Source: Variimorphobacter saccharofermentans (GTDB lineage: Bacteria > Bacillota > Clostridia > Lachnospirales > Lachnospiraceae). From it: a stretch of 64,000 nt of DNA. The first letter of the stretch is position 1. Every line of letters begins with the position of its first letter. Positions 45,119-61,579 of this stretch are shown piece by piece. Where the stretch lies: contig NZ_JACEGA010000001.1 of the NCBI RefSeq assembly GCF_014174405.1, positions 2,509,001 through 2,573,000 of the forward strand, written 5' to 3'. A program made the translations under genes and the position numbers. Below the pieces are notes generated by a model that saw only the letters and a list, made by a program, of their open reading frames with translations, did no database searches and was not told the DNA's origin.

Positions 45119-45128
45119 ACTTAATCCC

Positions 45129-46631
45129 TCAGATATTCTTAATTAATGATTTTTCATAATGATTGAGTGACATTTTCCATAATAATATGATATATAAAAC
45201 AACAATAAAGGTTCCTTTTATCAGAAAAATCCATAAAGAATATGCTGTAAAATGATTGATTATGATCCCGACAATTAATGTGATTAACATAGGAGGAGCC
45301 ATATCAATATAGCAGGCCTTAATAAAGGAAAAAATATTAATATGAAGTACTTTATAATAGATAATGTTCATAATGATAAGTCTTATGAAATATACCAGAC
45401 AGATGGAGATGGCTGCCCCCAAAGCTCCAAAATATTGAGAAAGAATACTGGAGAATAATATATTTAAAATTGCTACTATTACATATATAAAAGCTTGAAT
45501 TCTAACCTTATTCATAGCAATTATGGTAATACTAGCAATTTGCTGAGGAACTCGAAAAACCCCAGGTAACATCATCAGTAATGCACAATAGTATGCCAGA
45601 TCAAAGTCTTTACCCATCCATAAATAGATAAATTCTTTGCCAACAACAGTAAAACCAATAAAAATAAGACCGATAATACTATATTGGATTCGCCCAACTT
45701 TAATCATGAGTGGTAATACATCCTTACCGTCATTTTTATTAGTAAGAATCTTAGAAACCTTAGGAAGGAACATACCATTTACAGCTCCAGATATGATATA
45801 GGCATAGGATTCCAATGTACTGGCAACTCCAAATATAGCAATTTGCGACGAACCGGATACCGCACCAAGGATCGAAGGAATAATACTAAATATAAAACGA
45901 TTGGCAAAGGTGGAAACCGTTGACCAAATGGAAAAACCAAAGACCTCTTTTAGTAGCTTTGTTTCCCAGAACTTAATATTTACCTTAATTGGAAGTGTAT
46001 TGTGTATATAGAACAGTTTAATCACAATGATCAATAGACCGGCAAAGACATTGACTAATACTAAGGCATATAATTTATAACCTAACATTAATGCTATCAC
46101 CATTAATGTTAAAACGATTAGCTTGTGAACCAGATCACTTAATTTTAGCGTCTTAAATTTCTCATAGGAAGTTAATATGCCATTGAGAGTAATAAAAGGC
46201 AATGAGATAATGCTAAAGGCAGATGTTATCATATAGATAACCTTAAACTTATCTATTTCCTCCGGTGTTAGTTCCGAATAAATAACAGGGATAAAGAAGT
46301 ACATGATGATGAGTAATAAGAATATTAGCAAATCTATGAAAAAATATAGCTTGTATATTAAACCAAGAAAATCATTTACCTTCTGCTGATTCCCTTCTGC
46401 ATTATATTTACTTATGAATCTGGATACTGCTTCGCTTATGCCAAAGTCAATCAGAAATATACTAATCAGGGATGTGGCCAAGGTATATAAACCGTAATCG
46501 TTCACTCCGATTTGCTTTACCATCCAAGGAGTATATAACAAACCTGAAAGTAGACTTACGCCAATCGCAAGGTATGATATCATAGCTCCTTTTTTTATTT
46601 GATTCATACTATTATCATATCTCGATTTCAA
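45129..46631 (-). CDS. wzx: Polysaccharide flippase (Wzx/RfbX-like)
   Basis: This 500-residue membrane protein has about fourteen hydrophobic segments and the MATE/MVF-like fold of oligosaccharide-lipid flippases (YLAIGVSLLSGLLYTPWMVKQIG at the N-terminus, then an SRFISKYNAEG loop). It moves the lipid-linked repeat unit across the membrane for Wzy polymerisation. The start is likely the TTG at 46631, with GGAGG four bases before it inside the end of the formyltransferase gene and immediately after that gene's stop; an ATG at 46607 lacks a good site. Confidence 0.9.
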   Translation of the reverse strand: MKSRYDNSMNQIKKGAMISYLAIGVSLLSGLLYTPWMVKQIGVNDYGLYTLATSLISIFLIDFGISEAVSRFISKYNAEGNQQKVNDFLGLIYKLYFFIDLLIFLLLIIMYFFIPVIYSELTPEEIDKFKVIYMITSAFSIISLPFITLNGILTSYEKFKTLKLSDLVHKLIVLTLMVIALMLGYKLYALVLVNVFAGLLIIVIKLFYIHNTLPIKVNIKFWETKLLKEVFGFSIWSTVSTFANRFIFSIIPSILGAVSGSSQIAIFGVASTLESYAYIISGAVNGMFLPKVSKILTNKNDGKDVLPLMIKVGRIQYSIIGLIFIGFTVVGKEFIYLWMGKDFDLAYYCALLMMLPGVFRVPQQIASITIIAMNKVRIQAFIYVIVAILNILFSSILSQYFGALGAAISICLVYFIRLIIMNIIYYKVLHINIFSFIKACYIDMAPPMLITLIVGIIINHFTAYSLWIFLIKGTFIVVLYIILLWKMSLNHYEKSLIKNI

Positions 46632-47468
46632 TTAGCCTCCCCCTCCCTCTATCTCATAATGAATCGGGGTTAAATATCCATCCATTAATTTAATTTCACC
46701 TTTCACCGGATCCGTCCTTGCTGACCATATTCGTATTATTTTATCTCCTGCTTTATAGTATGCTCCCGGATAAGGATGGGTAACTGCTCTGACCAATTTA
46801 TCTGCCTCGTCCATGGTCATGCTATGAAAAATCTCACCATCCTCCGGCCTTCTTCCAGGCCATTCTGTGGCTTTCGCCTCATCCTGCTTCGTTAAGGTAA
46901 TTCTATCATTTACGATATCATCCCAATATCTTGAGATCAGTACAATGTGCATTTCATTCACTTTACGATACAATTGCGTCGCTGTTGTTTTGTCATCAAG
47001 TTCTATTTTTCCTTGTCCTATGATATCACCTGTATCCACACCTTCATCCAATTTGAACATTGTTACGCCAGTTTGGTGAAGCCCCTTTAATATTGCCCAT
47101 GGGATGGCTGCTCTTCCCCTGCCAACCGGTAGAAGAGTCGGATGCATACCAATACATCCTTTTCTGGGTGTATTAAGGATTTCCTTTCTAGCAATTTGTG
47201 ACCAACCAATGATAAATAGCCAGTCTATTTCCTCCTTCTTTAAGGCTACTATTACCTCTGGATCATTGATATTATTGATTTTTATAAGCGGTATATTATA
47301 CTTTTTTGCTATCTCATCAAGATAAATCCTACCCGATTTACTCTTGGCCTTCTCATCCTTCAGGGTAATAAGCAAATCGAGTTCTCCATTCATACGAAGG
47401 ATCTCCTCGATACAGCTAAGCCCCAGTTGTACACAGGTTGCAAATGCAATCCTCCTCTTCTTCACCAT
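46632..47468 (-). CDS. Sugar N-formyltransferase-like protein
   Basis: This 278-residue protein has the formyltransferase fold of Fmt and ArnA. The HPTLLPVGRGRAAIPWAIL segment holds His109, and GVDTGD holds Asp145. The Asn usually two residues before the His is a Gly here (CIGMHP), a variant I believe recurs in polysaccharide loci. It would transfer a formyl group from N10-formyltetrahydrofolate to an amino sugar. The PIG-L deacetylase 14 bases upstream would provide the free amine. GGAGGAGGGGAT precedes the ATG. A C-terminal domain of about 70 residues follows the core. Confidence 0.82.
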   Translation of the reverse strand: MVKKRRIAFATCVQLGLSCIEEILRMNGELDLLITLKDEKAKSKSGRIYLDEIAKKYNIPLIKINNINDPEVIVALKKEEIDWLFIIGWSQIARKEILNTPRKGCIGMHPTLLPVGRGRAAIPWAILKGLHQTGVTMFKLDEGVDTGDIIGQGKIELDDKTTATQLYRKVNEMHIVLISRYWDDIVNDRITLTKQDEAKATEWPGRRPEDGEIFHSMTMDEADKLVRAVTHPYPGAYYKAGDKIIRIWSARTDPVKGEIKLMDGYLTPIHYEIEGGGG

Positions 47469-47482
47469 ATCCCCTCCTCCGA

Positions 47483-48163
47483 CTACAGTCCTCTTCGAAA
47501 CACACTTTCAAATGCCTCTGCGTAAATCATACCCGCCTGCCCTCCACGATATATTGCTAATCCTCTTAATGCTTCATTACTGCGAGGATGCGGATAATCT
47601 CTCATGACACCCCGATACTGAGCAAGCGCTTCTATCTTCTTATCGATTGCTTGTTCCCCCACTTCCACAAAGGTATTAGGATTAAACTGATTCAATGCTT
47701 TGTTCAGTGCCCAATCCGTAGCCGACAACACTTCCATAAACAATAATTCTACAATTGGATGAATGTCAGGCTTTCTCTGGAATATTCTAACTGCAGCCTG
47801 ACACGCAATTGACGTATGTATATGATCATTATTCAAATCTGCAGGATGATGTGTGAATATCACTTCCGGCTTCGTATCCATCATTGCTTTTTCAATAAAT
47901 TGTACCAATTGTAAATGTGGCACAGTATTAAACTCAATATTGGGAAAGTTTCCTTTGATTACTTTTTCTACCCCCAACAGGTTGAGTGAGCTGTGAACAT
48001 CGATATTCAGCTCCTTTATACTGGGTCGATTATTTCGCGCATTTACCTCACCGGACAAAATGCAAACATTTACGGAATGACCTTCCTTTGCAAGCTTATA
48101 CATGGTCGCTCCTGCACCTAGAATTTCATCATCCGGATGTGCTACTACGATTAGATACACCAT
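47483..48163 (-). CDS. PIG-L family deacetylase
   Basis: This 226-residue zinc-dependent N-deacetylase has the AHPDDE motif (residues 8-13) and HHPADLNNDH (105-114), the two metal and catalytic motifs of the PIG-L/LmbE family. Members remove acetyl groups from GlcNAc-type sugars. The ATG at 48163 is preceded by GGGGAGG 9 bases away and overlaps the end of the upstream glycosyltransferase gene by 35 bases. Pairing with a formyltransferase suggests acetyl-to-formyl exchange on an amino sugar of the glycan. Confidence 0.9.
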   Translation of the reverse strand: MVYLIVVAHPDDEILGAGATMYKLAKEGHSVNVCILSGEVNARNNRPSIKELNIDVHSSLNLLGVEKVIKGNFPNIEFNTVPHLQLVQFIEKAMMDTKPEVIFTHHPADLNNDHIHTSIACQAAVRIFQRKPDIHPIVELLFMEVLSATDWALNKALNQFNPNTFVEVGEQAIDKKIEALAQYRGVMRDYPHPRSNEALRGLAIYRGGQAGMIYAEAFESVFRRGL

Positions 48164-49376
48164 AGTGAATTGCCTCCCCACCACTTAATTCATGATAGAG
48201 CTTACTATATTCATTCAGACATTTGGTTTTGTTAAAGTTCTCGTTGGCATAATGTATACAATGCTTGCTATAATAGCTTTTGGTATTCCTGTAAACCTGA
48301 TTTATTTTCTCAAAAAGGTCCTCCCTATTATTTTCATCCACTACATAGCCACAACCATCCCCTATTTGCTCCGGGTTCGAAGTAGAGTTCATTGCTATAA
48401 CCGGTGTACCACATGCTAATGCTTCGATTGTTGCCCTTCCACAGGCCTCTTCCATTGATAAATTCAAAAGCACATCTGCCATGGAATAGAACTTCACCAT
48501 ACTGTTGACATCATGGGTTTCTCTAATATGTACAATGTTCTTATAAGCTTCCAGATTGTCTTTCATATTCCCTATCAAAACAATGACCATATATTCTGGT
48601 AGCTGTTTTGATAAACGAAGAAATTCAAATAAGCCCTTATCCACTGTCCAAAAGCTTGCGACTCCCAGGATCATAAACTTATGACTTAAGCCCATACTAC
48701 GGCGTAAATCCTCCGTATCAACCGGCTTATAGACATTAAAATCTACCCAGTTATAGATTCTGGTTATGATTTTAGCCTTCCCTAGTAAGGATTGCTTCGC
48801 TTCCTCTGTAATCCAATCGGATACCCCTACTACTGCCAGATGATTGATCCGTCCAAGCAAATCCCTTTTATCATGATACATTTTCCTGCTTTTATCAAAA
48901 AACCAACTTGGATTATCCCTATGAATCCTTGGACAATGATTACATTCCTCTTTCCATTTGTAACACTGGGTTACCGTAAAATGAAAGCATTTCCCTGTGA
49001 AGAACCAGCAATCATGCAACGTCAAAACAGTAGGAATATTCTTTCTGGTAATATATCTTAGTAGCATTATGATATTAATATAGTTCCCATGAAGATTATG
49101 AAGGTGAATGATATCCGGTTCTAAGAGCTCAATATATTTTAGTAGCCGGTAAGTTTCCAACACCGAGAAATATCCCTGTTTTCCAGTGATTCTGGATAAT
49201 AGAGCATGACACTTACGGTCGAATTTATTGCCTATTTTATAGCCTCGTGCTTTGATTCCATCCGAATATGCGATGTATCCTTTATGACCATTGTCATTAA
49301 GAAATTCTATGATTTCTGAGCATATCCTACCAGTACTACGAATACCACTTACGGCATTAATATGAAGAATTTTCAT
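48129..49376 (-). CDS. Family 4 glycosyltransferase
   Basis: This 415-residue GT-B enzyme has an N-terminal acceptor domain (MKILHINAVSGIRSTGR start) and a C-terminal GT4 nucleotide-sugar domain, with MEEACGRATIEALACGTPVIA as the EX7E motif. A cysteine group (CFHFTVTQCYKWKEECNHCP) near residue 140 is like that of WcaC/colanic-acid-type transferases. It adds one sugar to the lipid-linked repeat unit on the cytoplasmic side. The donor cannot be told. Confidence 0.9.
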   Translation of the reverse strand: MKILHINAVSGIRSTGRICSEIIEFLNDNGHKGYIAYSDGIKARGYKIGNKFDRKCHALLSRITGKQGYFSVLETYRLLKYIELLEPDIIHLHNLHGNYINIIMLLRYITRKNIPTVLTLHDCWFFTGKCFHFTVTQCYKWKEECNHCPRIHRDNPSWFFDKSRKMYHDKRDLLGRINHLAVVGVSDWITEEAKQSLLGKAKIITRIYNWVDFNVYKPVDTEDLRRSMGLSHKFMILGVASFWTVDKGLFEFLRLSKQLPEYMVIVLIGNMKDNLEAYKNIVHIRETHDVNSMVKFYSMADVLLNLSMEEACGRATIEALACGTPVIAMNSTSNPEQIGDGCGYVVDENNREDLFEKINQVYRNTKSYYSKHCIHYANENFNKTKCLNEYSKLYHELSGGEAIHYGVSNRSSTSG

Positions 49377-49396
49377 AGTCCCTCCGTTCTACATAT

Positions 49397-50218
49397 CTAT
49401 AACTTACACCTGATAATATTATGGCTTGGCCGCCTCTCTTCTTCCGGCGGAAGCTTGCGGATATCACCAAACCTGGACTTAAGAAATGCTCTATAGTGCT
49501 TTGAGACGAGAAAACGTAAGCCCATGAATTCCATCTCAATTAATTCCTGATAAACCTTTCGATTCAGCGGTCTGAATTTACGATTTGGATTGCATAACTC
49601 ATAGTAGTACTTACAAGGGAAGGGGTTTAATATATTGCATATCAAATCGATAGAGACGTTAATCCACCTCAACGGAAGAAGCGCTAATATCTGATAGATC
49701 CATAACTTCAATCGATTTTTAGTGATCTCTTCTTTTTTCTTATATAAACGATTTAATTTCATACCTCTGGCACCGGTGAGCGATCCGATAAGAGCAATCT
49801 GCAGCCTTAATACCGGCAGAAAAATATGATCAACAGGAAAAATATCGATAAACAAGCCATGATGTATCTTTAAATGCTCTGTATTATCCTGAACATATAA
49901 GGTACCCTTCCTATGTATCTTGGAGTAACTAAGCGGGAAATCTCTTACCGTCCGGTTATTTTGAAGGAAAAAATCTTCCTTTAACTCCGATCTGCATATT
50001 TTTAAAAACTTTTCATATTCCTTTCGCTCCATTACAATATCAATATCATCATCCCATGGAACAAAGCCCTTATACTTAATGGCTCCAAGTAAAGTACCCC
50101 CTTCTAAGGAATACCTAATATGATGCTTTCTACAGATTCGATCCACCTCAATTAATATCGTGAATAACTTATCCTGTACCTCTTTGATATCATATTGGCA
50201 TATCTTATATTGACACAT
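49397..50218 (-). CDS. LicD family phosphotransferase
   Basis: This 273-residue protein has the LicD signature: RYSLEGGTLLGAIKYKGFVPWDDDIDI, cited here as GGTLLG followed by PWDDDID. LicD proteins transfer phosphocholine or similar phosphodiester-linked groups to glycans. No choline kinase or CDP-choline gene is visible nearby, so the substituent is uncertain. The ATG at 50218 follows an AGGTG box; a GTG at 50224 is the alternative. It lies in the middle of the polysaccharide operon. Confidence 0.9.
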   Translation of the reverse strand: MCQYKICQYDIKEVQDKLFTILIEVDRICRKHHIRYSLEGGTLLGAIKYKGFVPWDDDIDIVMERKEYEKFLKICRSELKEDFFLQNNRTVRDFPLSYSKIHRKGTLYVQDNTEHLKIHHGLFIDIFPVDHIFLPVLRLQIALIGSLTGARGMKLNRLYKKKEEITKNRLKLWIYQILALLPLRWINVSIDLICNILNPFPCKYYYELCNPNRKFRPLNRKVYQELIEMEFMGLRFLVSKHYRAFLKSRFGDIRKLPPEEERRPSHNIIRCKL

Positions 50219-50235
50219 AGGCACCTCGCTCTTAC

Positions 50236-51405
50236 TTATTTCATATTATTCGGAAACCAATCTTCCTTTACAATATATGCTCTGCTGCATGGCCCATTGT
50301 GATACCATATGCGTTTTCCATGTAAAAGATTTATTGATATTTCAATCAAACGAGAAGCTGCAACCTCCGGATTCCACGTGTGAACCATAGTGTCATATGC
50401 CTTCGTTCCATAGATGGTTTGTAGCTTCGGATGATTTATTAGCCTTCTTACTTTATGATATAGATCACCATTATTTCCTGATTGATAGATAAGACCATTC
50501 TTTTTGTGTTCTATGAGATATGGCACGCTTCCCACAGCATGACTTGCCACCACTGCACAGCCACAGCTCATCGCTTCATTGATAACCGCACCCCATCCCT
50601 CCATAAAATTACTGGTAGAGATAAATATATTGGCTTCTTCCATATACTTTTTCACTCTGTCAGGGGGCATTGAACCTAATAAATGAACCCTTTCCGATAA
50701 TCCTAAAGCTTTCACTAACATACGTAATCTATTCTCATAATTACCGGTCCCTATGATATTAATGGTAAAGTCTATATTCTGACTCATTAATTTTCTTGCC
50801 AGTAATATTACATCTTTGGTACGTTTCCATCTGATCAATCGTCCAACCCATAAAATGCTGCAATGGGGGTTCTCCTTCTTTTTCATTAATTCAGAGATAT
50901 CCGCGTTCGGTACCTCTGTGAAATAGCCCCATTGATAGCATGGCTTCCGATATCCACACAGGTATAAATCATAGGATGCATAAGCGCTGGCACATAGAAC
51001 ATACAGCTTCTTATCCTGATATCTCACTACTCTGTTTTGTATTTTTTTACGTGTTGAAGGTATGAATCTGCACCATAATCCATTTTTCAAGAAGCGTTCC
51101 GTGTAAAGAAAGCTAAGCTTATCCCTACTCATTCTTAATTCAATTAGTTTGGAAGGACAGGCACCAAATATTACTACATCGAATGTCATAATGATTCTAT
51201 AGACTAGTCTCCTTTGTTGGTTATTCTCATACATATTGATTGCATAGGAATACTTTGAGTTCATATCTTCGTAGCCAATCTTCAATCTTTCTCTCGGAAT
51301 TTGCCCAGTGCAAACAAAATAAAATTCCTCACAATGCATATACAACTGGTTACATAAATGTAATTGATGATGATTTAAATAGTTCGAAACAAAAGCAATC
51401 CTCAA
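50236..51405 (-). CDS. Family 4 glycosyltransferase
   Basis: This 389-residue GT-B enzyme has the C-terminal GT4 domain with WVGRLIRWKRTKDVI, IIGTGNYENRL and MEGWGAVINEAMSCGCAVVA as the EX7E region. The likely start is a TTG at 51405, 7 bases after AGG, because no in-frame ATG has a site. It probably adds one sugar of the repeat unit. The donor and linkage are unknown. Confidence 0.9.
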   Translation of the reverse strand: MRIAFVSNYLNHHQLHLCNQLYMHCEEFYFVCTGQIPRERLKIGYEDMNSKYSYAINMYENNQQRRLVYRIIMTFDVVIFGACPSKLIELRMSRDKLSFLYTERFLKNGLWCRFIPSTRKKIQNRVVRYQDKKLYVLCASAYASYDLYLCGYRKPCYQWGYFTEVPNADISELMKKKENPHCSILWVGRLIRWKRTKDVILLARKLMSQNIDFTINIIGTGNYENRLRMLVKALGLSERVHLLGSMPPDRVKKYMEEANIFISTSNFMEGWGAVINEAMSCGCAVVASHAVGSVPYLIEHKKNGLIYQSGNNGDLYHKVRRLINHPKLQTIYGTKAYDTMVHTWNPEVAASRLIEISINLLHGKRIWYHNGPCSRAYIVKEDWFPNNMK

Positions 51406-51426: not shown

Positions 51427-52482
51427 TTATTGCCAAAAAAACATATACGCAGGGTTGTTCCTAATCAGCAAAAAAATTAATGTAGCACTAGCAACGAAAA
51501 AAACAAAGAATCTTTCTTTTTTCGGAAAGGAATTGATAAGCTCCGGAACTAACAGGATAATGAATAGTGAAAAATATTGAATAATTCGCATTGCGGAAGG
51601 ATTAATAAACGTAAAAGGTACAAGCAATACTGCTATTAACAGTGCATTCATATACTGTATCGCCTGCGTATTATTGGTCAAAATCTCTTTTCGTTTCATT
51701 AAAGTAACAATGGCTAATGCGATTAGGAAAATCGAAAATGTCCAGGTAGCTGCCCCTTCATATGGTTGATACTGATCATATCCGATTATTCTGCTACCCA
51801 ATCGAAACAAACTATCTTTCAATACTAAAGTTCCAGCAAAGGTACATCCATAAAGGACCAGATACTTATTAGTAAGCTTCTTATTCGTAATAAAATAAAA
51901 GGGTAAAAAACACATTGCTGATAAATGAATCGTACTAGCTATCAGAACCAGTAATATGAATTTCCATATATTTCGTTCTTTAATAAACTCATACCCCACG
52001 AATACCACTATGGCAGTTGCTATGGTCTGTCTGATCCCTGTTATCGAGAAAAAGGAATAAAACAACGATGAATATATCAGAAAGCTCATAAATGGGTCAT
52101 GCGAGTATCTATATATCCATATTCCAAGCGGCACTGTAAATATAACTGCGATAAGTATTAAATAAATGCGATAATCCGTGGATAATAATTGAAAGAGCTT
52201 CTGAAACACGATATATCCCGGATCCTTACCCATGGATCCGTGAATAAAAATATTTACTCGCTCATTCCATAGGGTACTCCACGATATATTTTGGGCCTGC
52301 TCAAATATATAACCGTATTTTATCGTATCTGCACCAATCGTTAAGTGACGAAGACCGGATAGTAAAATCCAGTTTATTGATGCCAGTATGCAGAATATCT
52401 TGTTATTTCTCTGCGATGATTCATGTAAAAAAATCACTTTATATAAAATCAATAGCACGATATTGATTAAATAAATTATCAA
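51427..52482 (-). CDS. wzy: EpsG-like polysaccharide polymerase (Wzy)
   Basis: This 351-residue membrane protein has about ten hydrophobic segments and the EpsG family patterns GLRHLTIGADTIKYGYIF and TGIRQTIATAIVVF. It probably joins the repeat units on the outside of the membrane. Translation seems to start at a TTG at 52482, which has GAGGTGAG five bases upstream. It lies between two glycosyltransferases. Low sequence similarity among Wzy proteins means the assignment rests on the motifs and context. Confidence 0.87.
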   Translation of the reverse strand: MIIYLINIVLLILYKVIFLHESSQRNNKIFCILASINWILLSGLRHLTIGADTIKYGYIFEQAQNISWSTLWNERVNIFIHGSMGKDPGYIVFQKLFQLLSTDYRIYLILIAVIFTVPLGIWIYRYSHDPFMSFLIYSSLFYSFFSITGIRQTIATAIVVFVGYEFIKERNIWKFILLVLIASTIHLSAMCFLPFYFITNKKLTNKYLVLYGCTFAGTLVLKDSLFRLGSRIIGYDQYQPYEGAATWTFSIFLIALAIVTLMKRKEILTNNTQAIQYMNALLIAVLLVPFTFINPSAMRIIQYFSLFIILLVPELINSFPKKERFFVFFVASATLIFLLIRNNPAYMFFWQ

Positions 52483-52500
52483 ATAAACTCACCTCATATA

Positions 52501-53784
52501 TCATTTCCCATGTAATAGAGTCTTCAAATCATTTTCTAAGGTACTCTGTATATGCTTTCTCTGATGATTTCTCCATCCACATTCCCAAGATTGTTTCGCA
52601 TATTTTTTTCTGAGGCTTGGTGAATTAATCAGTCGGCTTAATTTCCGTATTATCTCACTTTTCTTATAGGCAATGACTGCCCCATGGTTTTTCGATAAAT
52701 ACTCTATTGAGGCTATGTCTTTGTTTCCGACAGCGAAAATGCACCTGCCACTATAAAAATAATCTACAAGCTTAGTGGAAAATGATAATCGAACCTTGAA
52801 ACGCTGCTTAAGATCAAAGCCTTCTACATGAATTAATATATCAGCCTCCTGTTGAATGGCTGCTATTTCTTCTGACGGAACGGATTTCATTCTATGAATG
52901 CTTTCCGGATAATCTAATAAGCGTCTCATTTTAAGATTAAGCGGAGTGGAGGTGTAAATATATAATACTGCCTTTATCCCATCCCTATTTATTTCATGTA
53001 AAGCAGAGCCTATCAGTGCTAGTGTTTTATAACGTCCCGTACCGATATTTCCGGAATACACCAGCTTTACAGGCTGGTTCTTGATTTCATAGGTGGGCTG
53101 CTCCTCGAAATCATAACCTTTATATAAGATTCTACAACTACGTCCGAATAATCTGGAATACTCCATCCTTTGCTTTTCGGATATGACATACATAAGAGAG
53201 CTTAATTCAGATAATTTCCTTAATTTCTTTCTCTGAAGGAAGCGATTGATCCAGAAAATGGGTGACAAGGAAAACTGCTTTAATGTATATACATCATCCC
53301 AAGCGTAAACTACTACGGGGACCTTGGTATATTCCTTTAGAAAAAATAACATTTCATTTAAATACCCTCGATCCAGAAAGTGTGCAAAAATAATGTCTGG
53401 ATTAAATTGATCTACAAAATCTTTTAAATCATCACAAATCCAGTTCTTAAAGCTCCAAATTAAATCTCTCAATAAAAAGAATAGCTGTAATCGATGGGAA
53501 CGCATGAAATCAACTGCTTTCTTCCTTTTATCAAGGGCTCTCATATCCTGATTACTAGAAGTAATGATACGGCAGCATTTGTGTTTAGGATTAATCAAAT
53601 TCTTAAGAATATTTCGTTCACTGATATGCAGATGGTATTTCACAAAATCGACATCCGGAGTTCCCCCGCCGCAGCAAATATGAGCAATTTCTATATCTTC
53701 CATACCATTAAATAGATTGGTATAGGTATTCCCGATACTATTATCCTTTCTCCATGGATTACAAGATACAACCAATATTCTCAT
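52501..53784 (-). CDS. Glycosyltransferase (GT-B fold, uncertain family)
   Basis: This 427-residue protein begins MRILVVSCNPWRKDNSIGNT and has a C-terminal nucleotide-sugar domain with VYSGNIGTGRYKTLALIG, SVPSEEIAAIQQEADILIHVEG and FSTKLVDYFYSGRCIFAVG. The usual GT4 EX7E motif is not clear, so the family is uncertain. Context in the polysaccharide operon supports a sugar transferase. GGAG lies 8 bases before the ATG. Confidence 0.82.
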   Translation of the reverse strand: MRILVVSCNPWRKDNSIGNTYTNLFNGMEDIEIAHICCGGGTPDVDFVKYHLHISERNILKNLINPKHKCCRIITSSNQDMRALDKRKKAVDFMRSHRLQLFFLLRDLIWSFKNWICDDLKDFVDQFNPDIIFAHFLDRGYLNEMLFFLKEYTKVPVVVYAWDDVYTLKQFSLSPIFWINRFLQRKKLRKLSELSSLMYVISEKQRMEYSRLFGRSCRILYKGYDFEEQPTYEIKNQPVKLVYSGNIGTGRYKTLALIGSALHEINRDGIKAVLYIYTSTPLNLKMRRLLDYPESIHRMKSVPSEEIAAIQQEADILIHVEGFDLKQRFKVRLSFSTKLVDYFYSGRCIFAVGNKDIASIEYLSKNHGAVIAYKKSEIIRKLSRLINSPSLRKKYAKQSWECGWRNHQRKHIQSTLENDLKTLLHGK

Positions 53785-53807: not shown

Positions 53808-55949
53808 TTAGTTATTGAAGTACTGCGCATTATTTTCACCAAACGGTTTCCTTTTTGATAATTGCTTTACCAAATGGATTCGATTCTGTAATAGCTTTTG
53901 TGCAAATATTTTTGCATCAAAACGACTTTTTACATATTCATGTGCTGCTTTACCATATCGGTATCGTTTCTCGTCATCATTCACCAGCTCTTCCACTGCA
54001 GCTACAATGGCATTCGTATTCTTTACAGGTATAGTAATCCCGGTAACATTCTTAATCATTGCATTCGCAGGCCCCGGTATATCGGTTACAATGACAGGTA
54101 CCTCCATAGCTTGGGCTTCCACTACTGACATACCAAATCCCTCTCTGTAGCTGGGAAGGATAAAGATATCCATTGCAGCAATATGTCTTTCCACATCAGT
54201 AACCCGGTTTGTTTTTATAATACGATCATTTTGATAAAACCACTCCAATAATACAGGATCAATCGTGTCCTCCTTTTCAATGGGACCGACAAAAAGTAGC
54301 TTCAATTTCGGACACTTTTCTTCTAATAATTTGAACGCCTCGAATAGTTCAACACATCCCTTTTCTTTACCTAATCGACCAACAAATCCTAGGACAATAC
54401 TATTCTCCTCGATACCATATTTATTGCGAATCTCCCTGCGATAAATCTCTTTCTGTCCAATATCGAATTTATCAAAATCAACTCCCTTTGCACTACCGTT
54501 CCATATCACACTGCTTTTCTTTTTCGAATAAAACCTTCTTTTTCTACAATAATGTAAATTCCCATAGCTGTCCGGTTGTACCCGGGTAGATAATAAGCAC
54601 ACGATTCGTTCTATCGTTTGGAACAGGATTCGCTTTAAGCCTTTCATAGTCACATGAACCATACCCCACTGACAGTATAAGCGTATAGGTATTCTGGCCA
54701 GACAGGATGCAATAGCCGCATAAAAGCTTGCATTTGGCGTGGAATATTGAGCCATATGAAAGTTACCTTGTTTAAGTGCCCTATATAAATAATAGACTGC
54801 CTTTAAGGATCCCAGAAGATCAATTCCCCTTGGCATAGGGATTGAAATGGCTTTTATATAGGGGTAGCTATATAGTAGCTCCTGTTTATATTCCTCTGTC
54901 ATATTGCATATCACTGTTACGTCAAAGCCATACTCGTTATATAATGGCAAAAATGGTTTTATCCAATAATCAATGGAGCTGGATATGGTGGTTATGATGC
55001 AGTATCGATATCGATAACCTGCTTTTCGCTTAGATCGATTATATTGCTCTATAAAATTCTTTATATTACTCTTAATAAGACTATAGAGCCGATCTGCTGT
55101 CTTATCCGAGGTATAAGAATTATGCGGTGTTATTATGACATTCTCAAAATCCCATAATGGGCTCTCACTACTTAATGGTTCTTCTTCAAATGCATCCAGA
55201 GCAGCACCATGAATTCTTTTCCTTTGTAATGCATTTATTAAAGCCTTCTCATCAACAAGTGCTCCTCTTGATACATTAATTAGGATACTGCTTTTCTTTA
55301 GCATCGATATCCTCTCGTTATTCATGAAATGATGGGTTTTCTCTGTAACCGGTAACGAAAGAATAAGAATATCCGCCCTATCTAACACATGATCCAATTG
55401 ATCATATGTATAAAACTCATCGGTTAGGTTGGATTTCTGAAAGACTAAATCAATTCCAATAATATATAAATCAAAGGCTCTCAATCGTTTTGCAACCTCT
55501 CTGCCTACGCTGCCAAAACCAACAATAATTGCAGTTTTACCATTTAATTCAAGTATGTCTCTTTGCTTCATCCATTCATGATTTGTCTGCAACCGATAAA
55601 ACACTTTACTTTTTTTATAGAAATGTAAAATCATTAATATAACCCATTCAGCCATTGGAATGCTATATACTCCCTTAGCATTTTCCACCCGAATACTGGT
55701 GGATTTGATATATTCTATAGGAATCCTGTCAAAACCCGCACTTGTAAGTTGAATAAATTTCAAATTCTTGAATCTATCGATAGAGTTGTATAAGAATAAG
55801 CCATTACAGACTACCAGCTCGATGTCCGATACCTCTGTAGTAATTTCAGTTCTCTCATCCTTTATGTAGATAACTTCTCCTGCTATTTCTTCTAGTTCCC
55901 TTATTTGCTCTGCTGTATATGAAAAAACACCAGTCAATAACAGCTTCAT
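53808..55949 (-). CDS. D-2-hydroxyacid dehydrogenase fused to a family 4 glycosyltransferase
   Basis: This 713-residue protein has two enzyme parts in one frame. Residues 1 to about 305 form a D-isomer-specific 2-hydroxyacid dehydrogenase with NAD loop GFGSVG (144-149) and the catalytic set R228 (NVSRGALVD), E257 (AFEEEP) and H276 (TPHNSY). Residues from about 312 form a GT-B glycosyltransferase, with GFVGRLGKEKG and REGFGMSVVEAQAME as the donor-site motif. No stop or frameshift divides them. The start codon overlaps the stop of the upstream fusion gene by 4 bases (ATGA). The dehydrogenase could reduce a 2-keto acid, perhaps the product of the aldolase domain next door; this is inference. Confidence 0.88.
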   Translation of the reverse strand: MKLLLTGVFSYTAEQIRELEEIAGEVIYIKDERTEITTEVSDIELVVCNGLFLYNSIDRFKNLKFIQLTSAGFDRIPIEYIKSTSIRVENAKGVYSIPMAEWVILMILHFYKKSKVFYRLQTNHEWMKQRDILELNGKTAIIVGFGSVGREVAKRLRAFDLYIIGIDLVFQKSNLTDEFYTYDQLDHVLDRADILILSLPVTEKTHHFMNNERISMLKKSSILINVSRGALVDEKALINALQRKRIHGAALDAFEEEPLSSESPLWDFENVIITPHNSYTSDKTADRLYSLIKSNIKNFIEQYNRSKRKAGYRYRYCIITTISSSIDYWIKPFLPLYNEYGFDVTVICNMTEEYKQELLYSYPYIKAISIPMPRGIDLLGSLKAVYYLYRALKQGNFHMAQYSTPNASFYAAIASCLARIPIRLYCQWGMVHVTMKGLKRILFQTIERIVCLLSTRVQPDSYGNLHYCRKRRFYSKKKSSVIWNGSAKGVDFDKFDIGQKEIYRREIRNKYGIEENSIVLGFVGRLGKEKGCVELFEAFKLLEEKCPKLKLLFVGPIEKEDTIDPVLLEWFYQNDRIIKTNRVTDVERHIAAMDIFILPSYREGFGMSVVEAQAMEVPVIVTDIPGPANAMIKNVTGITIPVKNTNAIVAAVEELVNDDEKRYRYGKAAHEYVKSRFDAKIFAQKLLQNRIHLVKQLSKRKPFGENNAQYFNN

Positions 55950-57388
55950 TGAACTTCCCTGCCTTTTTTCAGCTTCTCTTCTATTTCAGCCACCTTCTTT
56001 TTTAATACTCTCTGATTTCTCAAAAAATATCGATAATCCTTCCTGCGTATCCTGTCTTCAAGGCATCGAATCTCCTTCAATCCCTCCTGAAAGACCTTTT
56101 CTATCGTTTCGTAACCCTCCTCCTGATCACAAAAGCTTCTGGATAAGATGGCCATACTACATCCAAGGCGATATATCTCACCGACTAAGTATTCTGCTGG
56201 TATCAAGCCCTCTCCCGGTCTTGTAATTCCTCCAAAGCCGTAAGGAATTCCCTTCGCTCTGAATTTATTACAGATTGCTTCCACTGTGCCATCCGCTAAC
56301 AAGGAAAACATAAAGATGCGTTTATAACCAAGGTGAAGATCATTGATTCCAATATGTGCATAATCAATTCCGGGAACACTTAAAATTGCATCAATATTCT
56401 TTACAGCCTCCGGAGTTTCAAAAAGCAAGCAGGTTTTTACCCTTCTATTAATATAAGCCATAAACTCTTCCACTTCTTTTTTTGTTTTAAAGAACGGAAG
56501 CATGATAATGTCAGCCCCATTTTCAATCGCTTCATTAATCTCATCCTTTGAACCGTCATATATGGGGTTAACACGTACTATAATTTTCGCTTTCTTTATA
56601 TTTTCTTTTATTTTTCCGATATCTACTATTCTATGATTGGAAATTCGGGTATCCAGATGCCCTTGCCTCTCTTTTTTTCCTATAATCTCCAGATCAATCC
56701 ATATCCAGTCAACACCGCTGTCCTCTGCAATCTTGGCTATTTTTGTGTCGTTTGTTCCATACATAAGCCTGATATAAGGGTAATCCTTACTCTTTTTTAC
56801 CGTTTCAGCTATGTTTAAATTACTATTCATAGTGAGAACCTTAAAGATTGTGATAAACACAATTTTCATATCCAGAAGAAAGCTGAAACGCTCCACATAT
56901 TCGATATCATACTCGATACGTCTGTCCCAATCCAAACCCTTTCTTCCATGTATTTGCGCTAATCCTGTAATTCCCGGGAGCACCATAAATCGCTTCTTCT
57001 GTAAGGCTGTGTATTCGTAAAACTTCCATGGATGATAGGTAAGGGGAGGTCTGGGTCCGATAAAGGACATATCTCTTTTTAAAATATTAATTAATTGAGG
57101 AAATTCATCAATGCTGGTTCTTCTTAATATTCTTCCTACTTTGGTTACTCGTTTATCTCCTTTTCGTTCATAGACCCCTTCTTTTTCTGCGCCTAGATAC
57201 ATCGTACGAAATTTATACATGCTGAATTCTCTCCCGTGTAATCCCAAACGTGACTGCTTATAGATGATTGGGCCTTTTGATTCTAGCTTAATGGATATTG
57301 CGACAATAACAAAAAGTGGTAGTAGAATAATTAGACCAAAGATAGAGCCCATCATATCTAATGTTCTCTTTACACTTCTATATCCCAT
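55946..57388 (-). CDS. Initiating sugar transferase fused to HpcH/HpaI-type aldolase
   Basis: This 480-residue protein has an N-terminal bacterial sugar transferase (residues 1 to about 190; one membrane helix, SMYKFRTM, DEFPQLINIL and FIGPRPP) that loads the first sugar phosphate on undecaprenyl phosphate. Residues 205-450 form an HpcH/HpaI aldolase/citrate lyase barrel, with metal ligands E324 (LFETPEA) and D350 (GINDLHLG) and R272 (VRVNP). The His of the DxEH motif of HpaI is replaced (DLEIIG), so the chemistry is uncertain. A helical tail follows. It starts a sub-operon after a terminator; GAGGGG is about 11 bases from the ATG. Confidence 0.87.
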   Translation of the reverse strand: MGYRSVKRTLDMMGSIFGLIILLPLFVIVAISIKLESKGPIIYKQSRLGLHGREFSMYKFRTMYLGAEKEGVYERKGDKRVTKVGRILRRTSIDEFPQLINILKRDMSFIGPRPPLTYHPWKFYEYTALQKKRFMVLPGITGLAQIHGRKGLDWDRRIEYDIEYVERFSFLLDMKIVFITIFKVLTMNSNLNIAETVKKSKDYPYIRLMYGTNDTKIAKIAEDSGVDWIWIDLEIIGKKERQGHLDTRISNHRIVDIGKIKENIKKAKIIVRVNPIYDGSKDEINEAIENGADIIMLPFFKTKKEVEEFMAYINRRVKTCLLFETPEAVKNIDAILSVPGIDYAHIGINDLHLGYKRIFMFSLLADGTVEAICNKFRAKGIPYGFGGITRPGEGLIPAEYLVGEIYRLGCSMAILSRSFCDQEEGYETIEKVFQEGLKEIRCLEDRIRRKDYRYFLRNQRVLKKKVAEIEEKLKKGREVQ

Positions 57389-57540
57389 AAAATCATGAAC
57401 CCCTCACATATCGTCATAGATTTAATATATGAAAGGGATCCATTTTTGTGCCGCTTATAAGCCGATGTAACATATATTGCGACTACTGTTGTAACGATGA
57501 AAGCTACTTTGCGAACATTCTATTATTATGAATAAAAAAA

Positions 57541-57568
57541 GGATCATGGCCTTCCTCACTCATGATCC
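57541..57568 (-). terminator. Terminator between the CapD-type gene and the fusion genes
   Basis: GGATCATG (57541-57548) and CATGATCC (57561-57568) form a perfect stem followed on the minus strand by seven T residues. It lies 38 bases past the CapD-type stop codon. Readthrough or an internal promoter (region 57389-57540) would be needed to express the rest of the locus. Confidence 0.85.
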
Positions 57569-57605: not shown

Positions 57606-59453
57606 TTATAGTTCCGTTGATTTTTGAAATGTTGGTACAGCCATAATTAAGGCATTTTTAATCTGCATCATATCCTTTGTATCAAGTGCTTTTTTAAGAC
57701 TTTTTATCTTCTCTTCAATTTCTTCCTGTGAAATTGTGTAATGCTTCTCAATGAAAATCTTAGCATCCTCAGTTTCTGACAGGTCATCGTTATGCATTAA
57801 CAGCTCTTCATTTAATTTTTCTCCCTGTCGTATTCCAATTTCTTCAATTGGAATTTCTTTATATGGAACATATCCCATTAACCGTATTAAGTTCTCGGCT
57901 AATGTTAATATATTGACCGGCTGCCCCATGTCTAATACATAGGTTTCCGATTGGGTATTCATAGAACAGGCTCTCAGAACCAATTGTGCTGCCTCAGATA
58001 TCGTCATAAAGTAACGGTTTGCTCTCTTATCCGTGATTGTCACCGGGCCGCCCTGTTCAATCTGTCGTCGGAAAAGCGGGATCACTGAACCGTTCGATCC
58101 CAATACATTCCCAAAACGGACTGTAATATAATCTGTGTCGCTTTCTTCCTTCATACTTTGAACGATCATTTCACATACTCTTTTACTTGCCCCCATCATA
58201 CTGGTTGGGTTAACTGCTTTATCCGTGGAAATAAGTACGAATTTCTTAGCATGATAACGATGTGCTGCATGGACCGTATAATAGGTTCCAAAGATATTAT
58301 TCTTAATTGCTTCATCGGTGCAATCCTCCATAAACGGAACATGCTTATGGGCAGCTGCATGGAATACAATCTCCGGTCTGTACTTCTCAAATAATGCATT
58401 AATCTTATCTTTATCCTGCACCGATGCAATCTCAACGGATAATCTTAGAGAATCATTGTACTGTGCGATTAATTCCTGCTGTATGTCAAAGGCATTATTT
58501 TCATAATTATCAATTATTATTAAATGCTTCGGACCTGACCTGGCTAGTTGACGGCATAATTCGGAACCAATGGAACCACCTCCGCCAGTCACCATAATGA
58601 TTCTCTTCTTAAAATAGCATTGGATCTCCGTCTCATCAAATGAAACGGACCTCCTTCCTATAAGTTCTTCTACCTTAAACTCCCGCACGCAAGATAATAA
58701 ATTAGATCCATTTTGCAGGATAGAGATCAGATCCGGCAGGAACTTCACTTTGACTTCTGACTTCGTAACAAGCTCTAATATTTCTCTCTTTCTTATCTCA
58801 CTTAGTGAGGGTATCGCTATAATTATCTCACTAACTGGCATTTCTTGTATAATGTCATGAAAACGATTGATTGGACCATATACCATGACATTTCGTATTT
58901 TCTTACCTATTTTTTCAATATCATCATCAATAAAATAGCGAACAGAATAATTTGATTTATGATTATATAGAATTTCATCATATATAAGTACCCCTGCACT
59001 ACCCGCGCCAATGATTGCTATGGGCAATCTGTACCTTGACATACGAGTAAGAAAATTGCGATATTTTCTATATAGGAAACGTATCAATAGCATAAGCAGG
59101 ATGGATACAGCACATGAGGATACAGAAAAAATAAGGGATGTTTTCTTTTTGAATAGAAAGCTGTTTATCAGGAAATAAATCAAAAAACCGAAGGTTATAC
59201 CAAACATTAATTTTATATATTCATTATACTCAGCATATTTCCAAATAATTTTATAGCTTTTTATTTTTATTTGAATGATGGTAATACATAATAAGATAGA
59301 AAATATATGGCTTAGAAAAACCTTAAAGTCAGATCCACTAAGTTGATATTGGATGCTATGAGGTATCCGATAGTAGATAATATAACAAGTAATATAAATA
59401 ATAAAGCAATCTATGATAAATAATATTATGGATTTCAGTTTGCTTAATTTCAT
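57606..59453 (-). CDS. Membrane-bound nucleotide-sugar 4,6-dehydratase (CapD/PglF/FlaA1 type)
   Basis: This 615-residue protein has four N-terminal membrane helices (about residues 10-125), a Rossmann linker (IAIIGAGSAGVLIYDEIL) and a C-terminal SDR domain (from about 280) with VTGGGGSIGSELCRQLA and STDKAVNPTSMMGASKRVCEM. Members convert UDP-GlcNAc to a 4-keto-6-deoxy sugar used for QuiNAc, FucNAc or bacillosamine-type residues. The gene follows cpsB, with 1 base between stop and start, so the two are coupled. Confidence 0.92.
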   Translation of the reverse strand: MKLSKLKSIILFIIDCFIIYITCYIIYYRIPHSIQYQLSGSDFKVFLSHIFSILLCITIIQIKIKSYKIIWKYAEYNEYIKLMFGITFGFLIYFLINSFLFKKKTSLIFSVSSCAVSILLMLLIRFLYRKYRNFLTRMSRYRLPIAIIGAGSAGVLIYDEILYNHKSNYSVRYFIDDDIEKIGKKIRNVMVYGPINRFHDIIQEMPVSEIIIAIPSLSEIRKREILELVTKSEVKVKFLPDLISILQNGSNLLSCVREFKVEELIGRRSVSFDETEIQCYFKKRIIMVTGGGGSIGSELCRQLARSGPKHLIIIDNYENNAFDIQQELIAQYNDSLRLSVEIASVQDKDKINALFEKYRPEIVFHAAAHKHVPFMEDCTDEAIKNNIFGTYYTVHAAHRYHAKKFVLISTDKAVNPTSMMGASKRVCEMIVQSMKEESDTDYITVRFGNVLGSNGSVIPLFRRQIEQGGPVTITDKRANRYFMTISEAAQLVLRACSMNTQSETYVLDMGQPVNILTLAENLIRLMGYVPYKEIPIEEIGIRQGEKLNEELLMHNDDLSETEDAKIFIEKHYTISQEEIEEKIKSLKKALDTKDMMQIKNALIMAVPTFQKSTEL

Positions 59454-59454
59454 T

Positions 59455-60189
59455 TTAGTTCACTTCCCTTAACATGAATTGACCGGTATCATTTCTAATC
59501 ATTTTCCCCTTTATTATTAATTTTGCATTTTGCTGTAATCGGTCACAATAATCTCTTCCAATCTCCTTCTCAATAATAACAAAGGCATCCCTTAGATTTG
59601 GAGGCCTTTGGAACATGTTGTGACAGTCACTTCCAACTACATCGATATATCCCTTTTTGATATAATGAAGTGCTGTTTTTCTCTGCTTTTTATCAATAAT
59701 GGTGTTTGCATTTATTTGCATAACACACCCCATATTTATTAATTGCTTTATATGCTGTTTACTTTTCCAAAGGAAATGGTACCTTTCAATATGAGCAAGA
59801 ACCGGTATCACCTGAAATAAATTCATCAGCTTTTCGATACTTTCGACATCCAAATCACCCCAATGATCTTTATAAGGCAGTTCCAGTAAAAGATACCTCG
59901 TATTATGAATACATAGCTGATCAAGATCAGAATATTGATACAGCATATCACGATATAGTGTCTCACTTCCAGAAATCAGGGTAATTCTGGATGAATTCAT
60001 TGTCAGAATTGCTTTTTCTCTTTTTGCAGTAAAATCCTCTAAAGAAATCTTTGCAGAATCAAAATGAGGAGTACATACCGCTGCGTGTATCTGTTGTGAT
60101 TCTAAGCACTCCGTCATTATTAGGGCTTCCTCTATATTCTTTGCACCATCATCAATATAAGGTAAGATATGAGTATGAATATCAATCAT
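59455..60189 (-). CDS. cpsB: Tyrosine-protein phosphatase of the PHP family (CpsB/YwqE)
   Basis: This 244-residue metal-dependent phosphatase removes phosphate from the tyrosine cluster of the CpsD kinase. Metal-binding residues are visible in MIDIHTHILPYIDDGAK at the N-terminus, in VCTPHF, in VLAHIERYHFL and in VGSDCHN. The ATG at 60189 overlaps the end of the kinase gene by 8 bases, with GGAG 6 bases upstream; an ATG at 60201 is possible. It is the phosphatase half of the capsule length-control switch. Confidence 0.93.
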   Translation of the reverse strand: MIDIHTHILPYIDDGAKNIEEALIMTECLESQQIHAAVCTPHFDSAKISLEDFTAKREKAILTMNSSRITLISGSETLYRDMLYQYSDLDQLCIHNTRYLLLELPYKDHWGDLDVESIEKLMNLFQVIPVLAHIERYHFLWKSKQHIKQLINMGCVMQINANTIIDKKQRKTALHYIKKGYIDVVGSDCHNMFQRPPNLRDAFVIIEKEIGRDYCDRLQQNAKLIIKGKMIRNDTGQFMLREVN

Positions 60190-61579
60190 GCGATGCTCCA
60201 TAATGAGAATAATAGTAATTTAATTTCTTTCCACGATTTATTGATACATCATTTAGTACAAATCCCAGTATGTTTCCATGGGATAGCATTAGTTTCTCTA
60301 ATGCATTGGTTAAATTAGGATGTGAAGTCATGCCCTCTCTGACAACGATGAGTAACCCATCAGAATACTTTACCAGGCTAAGGGAATCGGATAGTACATT
60401 CACAGGCGGTGTATCAAAAATAATGTAGTTATACTCCTTTTCAAGATTCAATAAGAGCTTCTCCATCTGACTACTTGCCAATAGTTCAGACGGGTTTGGA
60501 GATATGGAGCCCAATGGAATTATGTCCAGGTTATCATAAGAGGTTTTTATAATGACATCTTTTAGTTCTGCCATTCCTGACAGGGCATCACTAAGTCCCG
60601 GCTTATATTTTAAATTAAAGTAATTGTGTATCTTACCCTTTCGTAAATCACAATCTATAATCAGAACCCTGAAGCCTGCCTGAGATAACGTGATACCCAG
60701 ATTAACACTCGTGGTGCTTTTTCCGTCTGAGGGTAATGGACTGCTGATAATGATTTTTTTACATCCCTCTTTAACTAATGTAAAACGTAGATTTGTCCGA
60801 AGAGATTTGAACGATTCACTAAAAATGACTTTTGAATTATCATCAAAACCATTATTATTGTAATGCTTTTTATTTTTCGACTTAAATAAAATTCTCTTAT
60901 GTATCCCTCTTTCCTTTGACAGATCATAACTCGGTATTTCTCCCAGTATCGGGAATGGGTGATGTGTAGCTAAATCCTCCTTGCTCTTGATATTAACGTC
61001 CAGTATTTCAACTAAAAAAATTATGATAACCGAAGCTGCGAGACCGAGTAGTCCTCCAATCAGCGTATTCCTTAATATATTGGGTCCGGACGGTACCTTT
61101 GGGAAAATCACCGGATCAACCACACTGATCTTTGCAGATGGCTTGATTGTTTGTATTAATTCAGGTGCAATTCTCTCCATACTTTCTGCTAAAGTATAGG
61201 AATCATCTGCACTAAATGAAGTTACGCTAATTTGAAATATTTCTGTATTATTAATACTTTTTACTGTTGTCATATTTTTTAATTGACCTATGGAGTAACC
61301 CAGCATAGTATCATCCTGTATCTTCTCATAGAAAACATTCGTATTTAGAAAATTGATATAGGTTGTTACCACCTTCTGTGCATAATTCAATTCATTCAAA
61401 TTGAGACTGGCTTCCGAATCATTGGGTATTACATATAGCTTCACAGAAGTTGTATAGGAAGGATTTATTATAAATTTACTAAATATAAACGATAGTAATA
61501 ATCCAGCAAATAGACTAATAGTAATCCAGATGATTCTTTTTAGTACTAAGTTTATCATTTCTTTTACGGTAAACTCCAT
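60182..61579 (-). CDS. Fused CpsC-CpsD chain-length regulator and BY-kinase
   Basis: This 465-residue protein joins a Wzz-type membrane domain (two helices near residues 15-37 and 172-192) to a cytoplasmic tyrosine autokinase. The kinase shows Walker A PLPSDGKSTT (281-290), Walker A' VLIIDCDLRKG and a C-terminal tyrosine cluster NYYYSHYG (Y455-Y457 and Y460). In many Firmicutes these parts are separate proteins, so the fusion resembles proteobacterial Wzc. It controls export and chain length. GGAGGATTTGAGGA precedes the ATG; the upstream 250 bases contain a TATAAC-type -10 as a weak promoter candidate for the locus. Confidence 0.93.
   Translation of the reverse strand: MEFTVKEMINLVLKRIIWITISLFAGLLLSFIFSKFIINPSYTTSVKLYVIPNDSEASLNLNELNYAQKVVTTYINFLNTNVFYEKIQDDTMLGYSIGQLKNMTTVKSINNTEIFQISVTSFSADDSYTLAESMERIAPELIQTIKPSAKISVVDPVIFPKVPSGPNILRNTLIGGLLGLAASVIIIFLVEILDVNIKSKEDLATHHPFPILGEIPSYDLSKERGIHKRILFKSKNKKHYNNNGFDDNSKVIFSESFKSLRTNLRFTLVKEGCKKIIISSPLPSDGKSTTSVNLGITLSQAGFRVLIIDCDLRKGKIHNYFNLKYKPGLSDALSGMAELKDVIIKTSYDNLDIIPLGSISPNPSELLASSQMEKLLLNLEKEYNYIIFDTPPVNVLSDSLSLVKYSDGLLIVVREGMTSHPNLTNALEKLMLSHGNILGFVLNDVSINRGKKLNYYYSHYGASHD

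Follow-up and report, generated by a model that had tools for sequence, protein, structure and literature searches.

A recurrent aldolase-phosphoglycosyl transferase module with fused genes in a polysaccharide operon of Variimorphobacter saccharofermentans and its possible role in making C4-branched sugars

We analyzed a stretch of 64,000 nucleotides from Variimorphobacter saccharofermentans (Lachnospiraceae; NCBI RefSeq assembly GCF_014174405.1, contig NZ_JACEGA010000001.1, positions 2,509,001 to 2,573,000 of the forward strand), hereafter called the window. It holds a polysaccharide operon with two neighbouring fusion genes. The one transcribed first joins a phosphoglycosyl transferase (PGT) to an HpcH/HpaI-type aldolase, and the one transcribed second joins a D-2-hydroxyacid dehydrogenase (HADH) to a GT4 glycosyltransferase. 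Both fusions are real and are not assembly joins. The aldolase-PGT module to which they belong is also real and recurs in many genomes; it is apparently an undescribed enzyme set. We consider it very probable that this module makes and processes a 2-keto acid. We also favour, with clearly less assurance, the view that this 2-keto acid sits as an arm at C4 of the PGT's sugar substrate, i.e., that the product is a C4-branched 6-deoxy amino sugar.

The fusion genes and their homologues

The original prediction, made from the letters of the window, placed an initiating sugar transferase and an HpcH/HpaI-type aldolase in the gene at 55946 and, in the next gene after a 4-base overlap, a D-2-hydroxyacid dehydrogenase with its R/E/H set and a GT4 glycosyltransferase. 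Both descriptions proved correct: each pair of domains lies in one open frame, and the genes overlap in an ATGA (Table 1). In the first protein, Pfam recognizes Bac_transf (PF02397) at residues 7-185 with 218 bits and HpcH_HpaI (PF03328) at residues 213-352 with 49.8 bits, for a gathering cut-off of 25. The match to PF02397, the PglC fold and the residues D94-E95, which we take to be the DE dyad of these enzymes, identify the transferase part as a monotopic, PglC-like PGT. In the second protein, 2-Hacid_dh_C (PF02826) covers residues 105-277 with 184.4 bits and is accompanied by 2-Hacid_dh, while Glycos_transf_1 lies in the C-terminal part (504-670, 123 bits). PF02826 together with the R/E/H set marks the N-terminal part as an HADH.

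The same layouts are found in protein databases, where the original prediction had suggested looking for them. Both Pfam domains of the first fusion are present in 106 of its best 120 homologues (out of 6997; the window's own protein is P0001). HADH and GT4 occur together in 20 of the 120 homologues listed for the second fusion (the window's own is P0121), and R228, E257, and H276 are kept in all 20. Among the 94 loci surveyed below, a fused PGT-HpcH frame occurs in nine and a fused HADH-GT4 frame in seven, the window being counted. This recurrence in homologues and in other loci disposes of the objection that the fusions might be assembly joins. Separate genes in the order PGT-HpcH-HADH, often with GT4 next, are the commonest arrangement and fusions are few; a fusion is therefore two neighbouring genes made into one. 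Mobilisporobacter senegalensis (L008) is a culturable organism with both fusions, and Bacillus niameyensis (L009) is another culturable carrier of the module. A metagenomic protein (P0154) even combines PGT, HpcH, and GT4. We found no description of a PGT-HpcH fusion in the open-access literature, a search outside which the main survey of PGT fusions lies. Among the relatives of the window's GT4 domain, a protein of 766 residues (P0141) seems to carry two similar GT4 domains in tandem, and many matches are of like length; the source annotation of a more distant relative (P0210) is PglA-type.

Many residues of the aldolase domain are strongly conserved. Asp232, Glu234, Lys238, Arg241, Gln242, Arg272, and Glu324 are invariant in the 120 homologues, and Asn349, Asp350, Gly386, Gly387, and Arg417 are kept in all 119 that have a letter at these positions. 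By analogy with HpaI and YfaU, Glu324 and Asp350 are presumably metal-binding and Arg272 the substrate arginine. The predicted fold resembles YfaU, HpaI, and the pyruvate kinase barrel, the match to YfaU (2vws) having an E-value of 4.5e-10 and a template modelling (TM) score by target of 0.63. The domain scores below the NCBIfam equivalog cut-offs of HpaI (21.7 vs 368.8 bits) and RhmA (25.8 vs 441 bits). Given these scores and the residue conservation, the aldolase appears to be a separate branch of the HpcH/HpaI superfamily that is still functional.

A recurrent module with exchangeable partners

To place the two genes in context, we used one genome collection in which 246 stretches encode close or distant relatives of the aldolase. 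Of these, 80 loci from named genomes were kept and, together with loci from other genomes, gave 94 loci after de-duplication. Dropped before the counts were the window itself (L001, L084), the short loci L083 and L085-L093, for which longer stretches were used instead, three loci on the same contigs as others (L156, L159, and L157, matching L008, L081, and L031), and the plasmid locus L082. Neighbouring families were searched with hidden Markov models built from clusters of the same loci, so that distant members can be missed; the model of the short-chain reductase family SDR24 is narrow. Among the 77 loci with a given phylum, 74 are from Bacillota and one each from Pseudomonadota, Synergistota, and Bacteroidota.

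In 85 of the 94 loci, a PGT is encoded no more than 1.6 kb from the aldolase and on its strand. An HADH lies within 2.2 kb in 59 of them, and within 200 bp in 50. The combination of an aldolase with an HADH, held at the outset to be unusual in glycan assembly, is thus less so, since it recurs as a module next to a PGT. Other loci carry other partners within 9 kb of the aldolase: a class IV aminotransferase (AT4) in 10, an ATP-grasp protein in five, and a malate/L-lactate dehydrogenase of the Ldh_2 family in four; in three more, AsnB stands alone. None of the 94 loci has two of HADH, AT4, Ldh_2, and ATP-grasp together within this distance (hypergeometric 1e-10, uncorrected for relatedness). A LysA-like decarboxylase accompanies AT4 in nine of its 10 loci and is found in no locus without it. 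One locus (L174:7038-12536), in a genome of ~1.5 Mb, has PglF, HpcH, aminotransferase, decarboxylase, and PGT in a single run.

The four partner families suit the same type of substrate, namely a 2-keto acid or the carboxylate of one. Because loci without HADH carry Ldh_2 or an aminotransferase, which are also 2-keto-acid enzymes, the comparison supports the core of the original prediction, a two-step route in which an aldol-derived 2-keto acid is reduced to a 2-hydroxy acid, in connection with the start of the glycan. Two further proteins occur mostly with HADH: an Asn-synthetase-like protein (17 of 94 loci, 16 of them with HADH) and an acyltransferase-3 protein (eight loci, all with HADH). 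The predicted structure of one Asn-synthetase-like member (predicted local distance difference test score 89.6) matches the hydroxyamidotransferase TsnB9, beta-lactam synthetase, and AsnB; TsnB9 and beta-lactam synthetase are carboxylate-activating enzymes. A family of ~530 residues, represented by L073:11718-13298 and its relatives, has a model like these same three enzymes; the member scanned has no Pfam or NCBIfam match, and the family consensus lacks a Cys at position 2.

The module is also associated with PglF. This dehydratase forms a C4 ketone, UDP-4-keto-6-deoxy-N-acetylglucosamine (UDP-4-keto-6-deoxy-GlcNAc), which is normally consumed by a DegT aminotransferase or a reductase. In the genomes of 50 of the 80 named loci, PglF was present in 48. 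Within the window's family, PglF occurs in nine of nine aldolase-bearing genomes vs 180 of 290 other sampled genomes (p 0.03), and it is found in six of six aldolase genomes of another class. A DegT gene lies near PglF in two of the 34 loci with both PglF and aldolase vs nine of 20 control PglF loci (p 0.001), and a DegT or SDR24 reductase gene in seven of 34 vs 12 of 20. As controls we took those PglF loci of the window's family that scored highest and had no aldolase, so the two sets differ in lineage. The controls are stretches of up to ~18 kb, used in place of shorter ones of 3.7-4.8 kb; three of them are ended by the contig (L145, L147, and L153).

If the arm is built before the PGT acts, then PGTs should differ according to the tailoring enzyme, and the aldolase, which would make a common intermediate, need not. 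We compared trees of 73 loci, leaving out 21 of the 94 rows that had no defined partner or no full-length PGT within 3 kb. The tailoring label changes six times on the PGT tree vs 16 times on the aldolase tree, in trees that are quick and, for PGTs, based on short sequences. Shuffled labels gave a mean of 19.4 changes on both, with minima of 16 (PGT) and 17 (aldolase). With the aldolase data, monophyly of eight aminotransferase loci is rejected (approximately unbiased test, p 0.001; the ninth, L048, was left out); the PGT tree already groups these loci, with a support of 93 when 105 rows are used. The PGT data do not reject monophyly of the 53 HADH loci (p 0.36). Control PGTs of the larger tree stand apart from its main groups, which are those with HADH, aminotransferase, ATP-grasp, and AsnB. 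The match between PGT tree and label is not accounted for by simple linkage, since the aldolase usually lies between the PGT and the HADH. Hence, the PGT seems to read the tailored product and the aldolase seems to be the common step.

The operon and the genome of the window

The operon is read from a Wzz/AAA-type gene towards an FnlA/CapE-type gene (Table 1). Among its proteins that were scanned, we found no DegT aminotransferase, no separate RmlD/WreQ-type 4-ketoreductase, and no Asn-synthetase-like (amidating) protein; neither the DegT nor the PglD acetyltransferase expected with PglF in a bacillosamine route was among them. The genome has 14 DegT-family matches, none inside the window, and no close copy of the WreQ-like SDR24 reductase. 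A second polysaccharide locus of the same genome (L166, contig C1 3355500-3373500) has the order PglF-DegT-PGT, and the genome therefore has both this form and the one with PglF, PGT-HpcH, and HADH-GT4.

Table 1. Features of the operon, with positions in the window
Feature	Position	Strand	Remarks
PGT-HpcH fusion gene	55946-57388	-	480 amino acids (aa), uninterrupted reading frame over full length
PGT domain, PglC-like monotopic phosphoglycosyl transferase (Bac_transf)	56828..57388	-	residues 1-187 of the 480-aa fusion
HpcH/HpaI-type class II aldolase domain	55949..56770	-	residues 207-480; PF03328, residue conservation, fold
ATGA overlap of the two fusion genes	55946..55949	-	
HADH-GT4 fusion gene	53808-55949	-	713 aa, uninterrupted reading frame over full length
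D-2-hydroxyacid dehydrogenase (HADH) domain	55035..55949	-	residues ~1-305; R228, E257, H276
GT4 glycosyltransferase domain	53850..55004	-	residues ~316-700
Wzz/AAA-type chain length and kinase-like protein	60182..61579	-	operon start
CpsB/CapC phosphatase	59455..60201	-	
PglF/CapD-type membrane UDP-GlcNAc 4,6-dehydratase	57606..59453	-	PF02719, 374.7 bits; proposed 4-keto sugar source
Protein without Pfam or NCBIfam match	52501..53784	-	427 aa, cluster 7
EpsG-family membrane protein	51427..52482	-	likely polymerase
Rest of operon: GT4, LicD, GT4, PIG-L deacetylase, formyltransferase	within 44099..51405	-	
Flippase-like protein	45129-46631	-	
FnlA/CapE-type dehydratase	44099-45118	-	

The 427-aa protein of cluster 7 has relatives in 22 of 82 gene sets and lies near the module in close relatives. 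Between the PglF and PGT-HpcH genes, at 57534-57568 on the reverse strand, there is a perfect hairpin of 8 bp with a T run after it. It folds only modestly better than shuffled sequences (z -1.2), is absent from the terminator-scan list, and may attenuate transcription into the fusion genes. Rfam gave no matches at window positions 40000-64000.

A proposed route, its rivals, and known systems

In the route that we propose, PglF would convert UDP-GlcNAc to UDP-2-acetamido-2,6-dideoxy-4-hexulose, and the HpcH domain, as a metal-dependent pyruvate aldolase, would join pyruvate to the C4 ketone, so that the sugar gains a -CH2-CO-COO- arm. Reduction of the arm's keto group by the HADH domain would yield a D-2-hydroxy acid, the PGT domain would load the completed branched sugar-1-phosphate onto undecaprenyl phosphate, and the GT4 fused to the HADH would add the next sugar. 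We infer pyruvate as the donor, the C4 ketone as the acceptor, and likewise the order of steps and the product. The acid would thus probably not decorate the glycan as a small molecule, as originally suggested, and would instead form part of the PGT's sugar substrate, as an arm. In relatives, the same arm would be reduced by Ldh_2, transaminated and decarboxylated by AT4 and the LysA-like enzyme, ligated by the ATP-grasp protein, or amidated by an AsnB-type enzyme; aldolase plus AsnB would be expected to yield the rare branched sugar shewanellose (see below).

Whether this extends to a general scheme is, in our judgement, evenly balanced. In that scheme, an HpcH-type aldolase makes one common keto-acid sugar from pyruvate and C4 of UDP-4-keto-6-deoxy-GlcNAc, exchangeable enzymes tailor it (reduction to either hand, amination, decarboxylation, ligation, amidation), and dedicated PGTs transfer the products. 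It would supply the missing genetic basis of shewanellose and imply that Bacillota and other bacteria have a family of branched sugars, so far unseen, with carboxyl, hydroxy, and amino arms. If true, there would be C-C branching on a nucleotide sugar without thiamine pyrophosphate (TPP) and without loss of CO2, a genetic handle on shewanellose, and several new surface sugars predictable from gene content alone.

Several observations weigh against an arm built on the PglF ketone. Characterised HpcH/HpaI enzymes mostly accept aldehydes rather than ketones. PglF is missing from two of the 50 aldolase genomes, which come largely from other lineages than the family control; it is common anyway (189 of 299 sampled genomes of the family), and a PglF-type match lies within 9 kb in only 45 of the 94 aldolase loci. 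A WreQ-like 4-ketoreductase (SDR24), which may use this ketone as well, has its gene near that of the aldolase in eight of 94 loci, six of which (L002, L004-L008) are close relatives of the window. As to the partners, none of the four is present in 16 of 94 loci, two of the four Ldh_2 genes (L076, L081) are some kb distant from the aldolase, and, once relatedness is allowed for, the mutual exclusion is not significant (six supported pairs, median p 0.5). The tailoring label has left a trace on the aldolase tree too, whose 16 changes lie below the shuffled minimum; the aminotransferase group has a support of 44 on the PGT tree in the 73-row set, and the PGTs of L041, L076, L080, and L081 are placed among control PGTs. 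When Shewanella was sought through the decahaem cytochrome TIGR03507, present in nine of 369 genomes of the class sample (loci with a G+C content of 0.53-0.69), none was recognised. Finally, position 235, aligned to the His of YfaU and presumably that of the usual catalytic His after the DxE segment (His45 of HpaI), is Y in 53 homologues, I in 48, T in seven, V in six, and another residue in six; H occurs in none of the 120.

The missing His had been noted from the start, with the remark that it weakens a simple aldolase role. Its absence is confirmed, but a dead enzyme need not follow, because the metal and substrate residues are invariant and the family-specific stretch DxExxGKxxRQ occupies the His region. 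The absent His would suit a reading in which the HpcH and HADH domains have lost catalysis and are kept as scaffolds or regulators that help the operon's enzymes to assemble. We regard this as very improbable, given the invariant metal and substrate residues in the 120 aldolase homologues and the R/E/H set kept throughout the dehydrogenase fusions; moreover, exchange with unrelated 2-keto-acid enzymes makes little sense for a scaffold.

The closest rivals are decoration by a small acid and a different acceptor carbonyl or order of steps. The former, near to the original prediction, would have the aldolase join pyruvate to a free aldehyde (e.g., formaldehyde, giving 4-hydroxy-2-oxobutanoate), after which the HADH would make a 2-hydroxy acid, or an aminotransferase an amino acid, that is then bound to the glycan through an acyl, ether, or glycosidic link. 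It fits the aldehydes that HpcH enzymes usually accept, and some loci have possible carboxylate-activating enzymes (the Asn-synthetase-like and ATP-grasp proteins), but no activating enzyme is common to most loci and none is among the window proteins scanned. As it also leaves the PglF link, the missing DegT, and the match between PGT tree and tailoring unexplained, we find it rather unlikely. It is less likely still that the aldolase extends a different carbonyl of the sugar, or acts after the PGT on an undecaprenyl-pyrophosphate-linked 4-keto sugar. The fusion or adjacency of PGT and HpcH is compatible with either order, but the division of PGTs into groups by tailoring partner is easier to understand if the PGT receives a tailored sugar, and the arm of shewanellose sits on C4.

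This sugar is the nearest structural parallel to the product of the proposed C4 route. According to PMC4052302, shewanellose of S. putrefaciens A6 is 2-acetamido-2,6-dideoxy-4-C-(3'-carboxamide-2',2'-dihydroxypropyl)-D-galactose. Its arm, as given there, can be read as pyruvate with the methyl carbon bonded to C4, amidated and hydrated (a pyruvamide hydrate), on a 2-acetamido-2,6-dideoxyhexose, as PglF, a pyruvate aldolase, and amidation would yield. The likeness is one of structure only and, in the window, the arm would be reduced. Of a shewanellose-type pathway as proposed here, the window has PglF, aldolase, and PGT, and no AsnB-type amidation gene is among its scanned operon proteins. We found no shewanellose gene or pathway in the open-access literature searched. 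In the class around L048 (Candidatus Thiosymbion), the aldolase occurs in seven of 369 genomes. Three of these (L175-L177, labelled 'AsnB only' by hand) have HpcH-PGT-AsnB without HADH, AT4, Ldh_2, or ATP-grasp in the stretch examined, which is the set of genes that shewanellose would call for. One of the nine loci reached through TIGR03507 was also used to search plasmids, which gave nothing. Plasmid matches to the L048 aldolase in Pseudohalocynthiibacter and Roseovarius, at 37% identity, were set aside as too distant. In the Roseovarius pelagicus plasmid (L082, 8165-11905), this HpcH relative lies between asnB and a NeuB-like synthase, with HisF/HisH and an N-acetyl sugar amidotransferase nearby.

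Other known systems share single steps or domains with the module. YfaU/RhmA, HpaI, and GarL, class II pyruvate aldolases of the HpcH/HpaI type, have the same fold and metal and substrate residues; the window aldolase differs in its scores below the HpaI and RhmA cut-offs, its replaced His, its own DxExxGKxxRQ stretch, and its place beside a PGT. BshA and VanH belong to the same superfamilies as the GT4 and HADH domains, but the window proteins score far under the curated cut-offs (68.2 vs 273.7 bits for BshA and 110.4 vs 540 bits for VanH). A PglC-like PGT with a fused extra domain, as in the window, belongs to a recognised class, the Bi-PGTs (PMC10942596). In the YerE-type yersiniose and paulomycose pathways, as described in PMC4753412, a pyruvate-derived carbon unit is added onto C4 of a keto sugar and the side chain is then ketoreduced, acylation following ketoreduction in the paulomycin pathway. 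They set a precedent for C4 branching from pyruvate with ketoreduction, but YerE is a TPP-dependent flavoprotein that adds a two-carbon acetyl branch, whereas the metal aldolase proposed here would add all three carbons, the carboxylate included. Finally, the PglF-PglE-PglD-PglC route to bacillosamine has the same PglF start, and in the window its PglE and PglD (DegT and acetyltransferase) are apparently replaced by the aldolase and the dehydrogenase.

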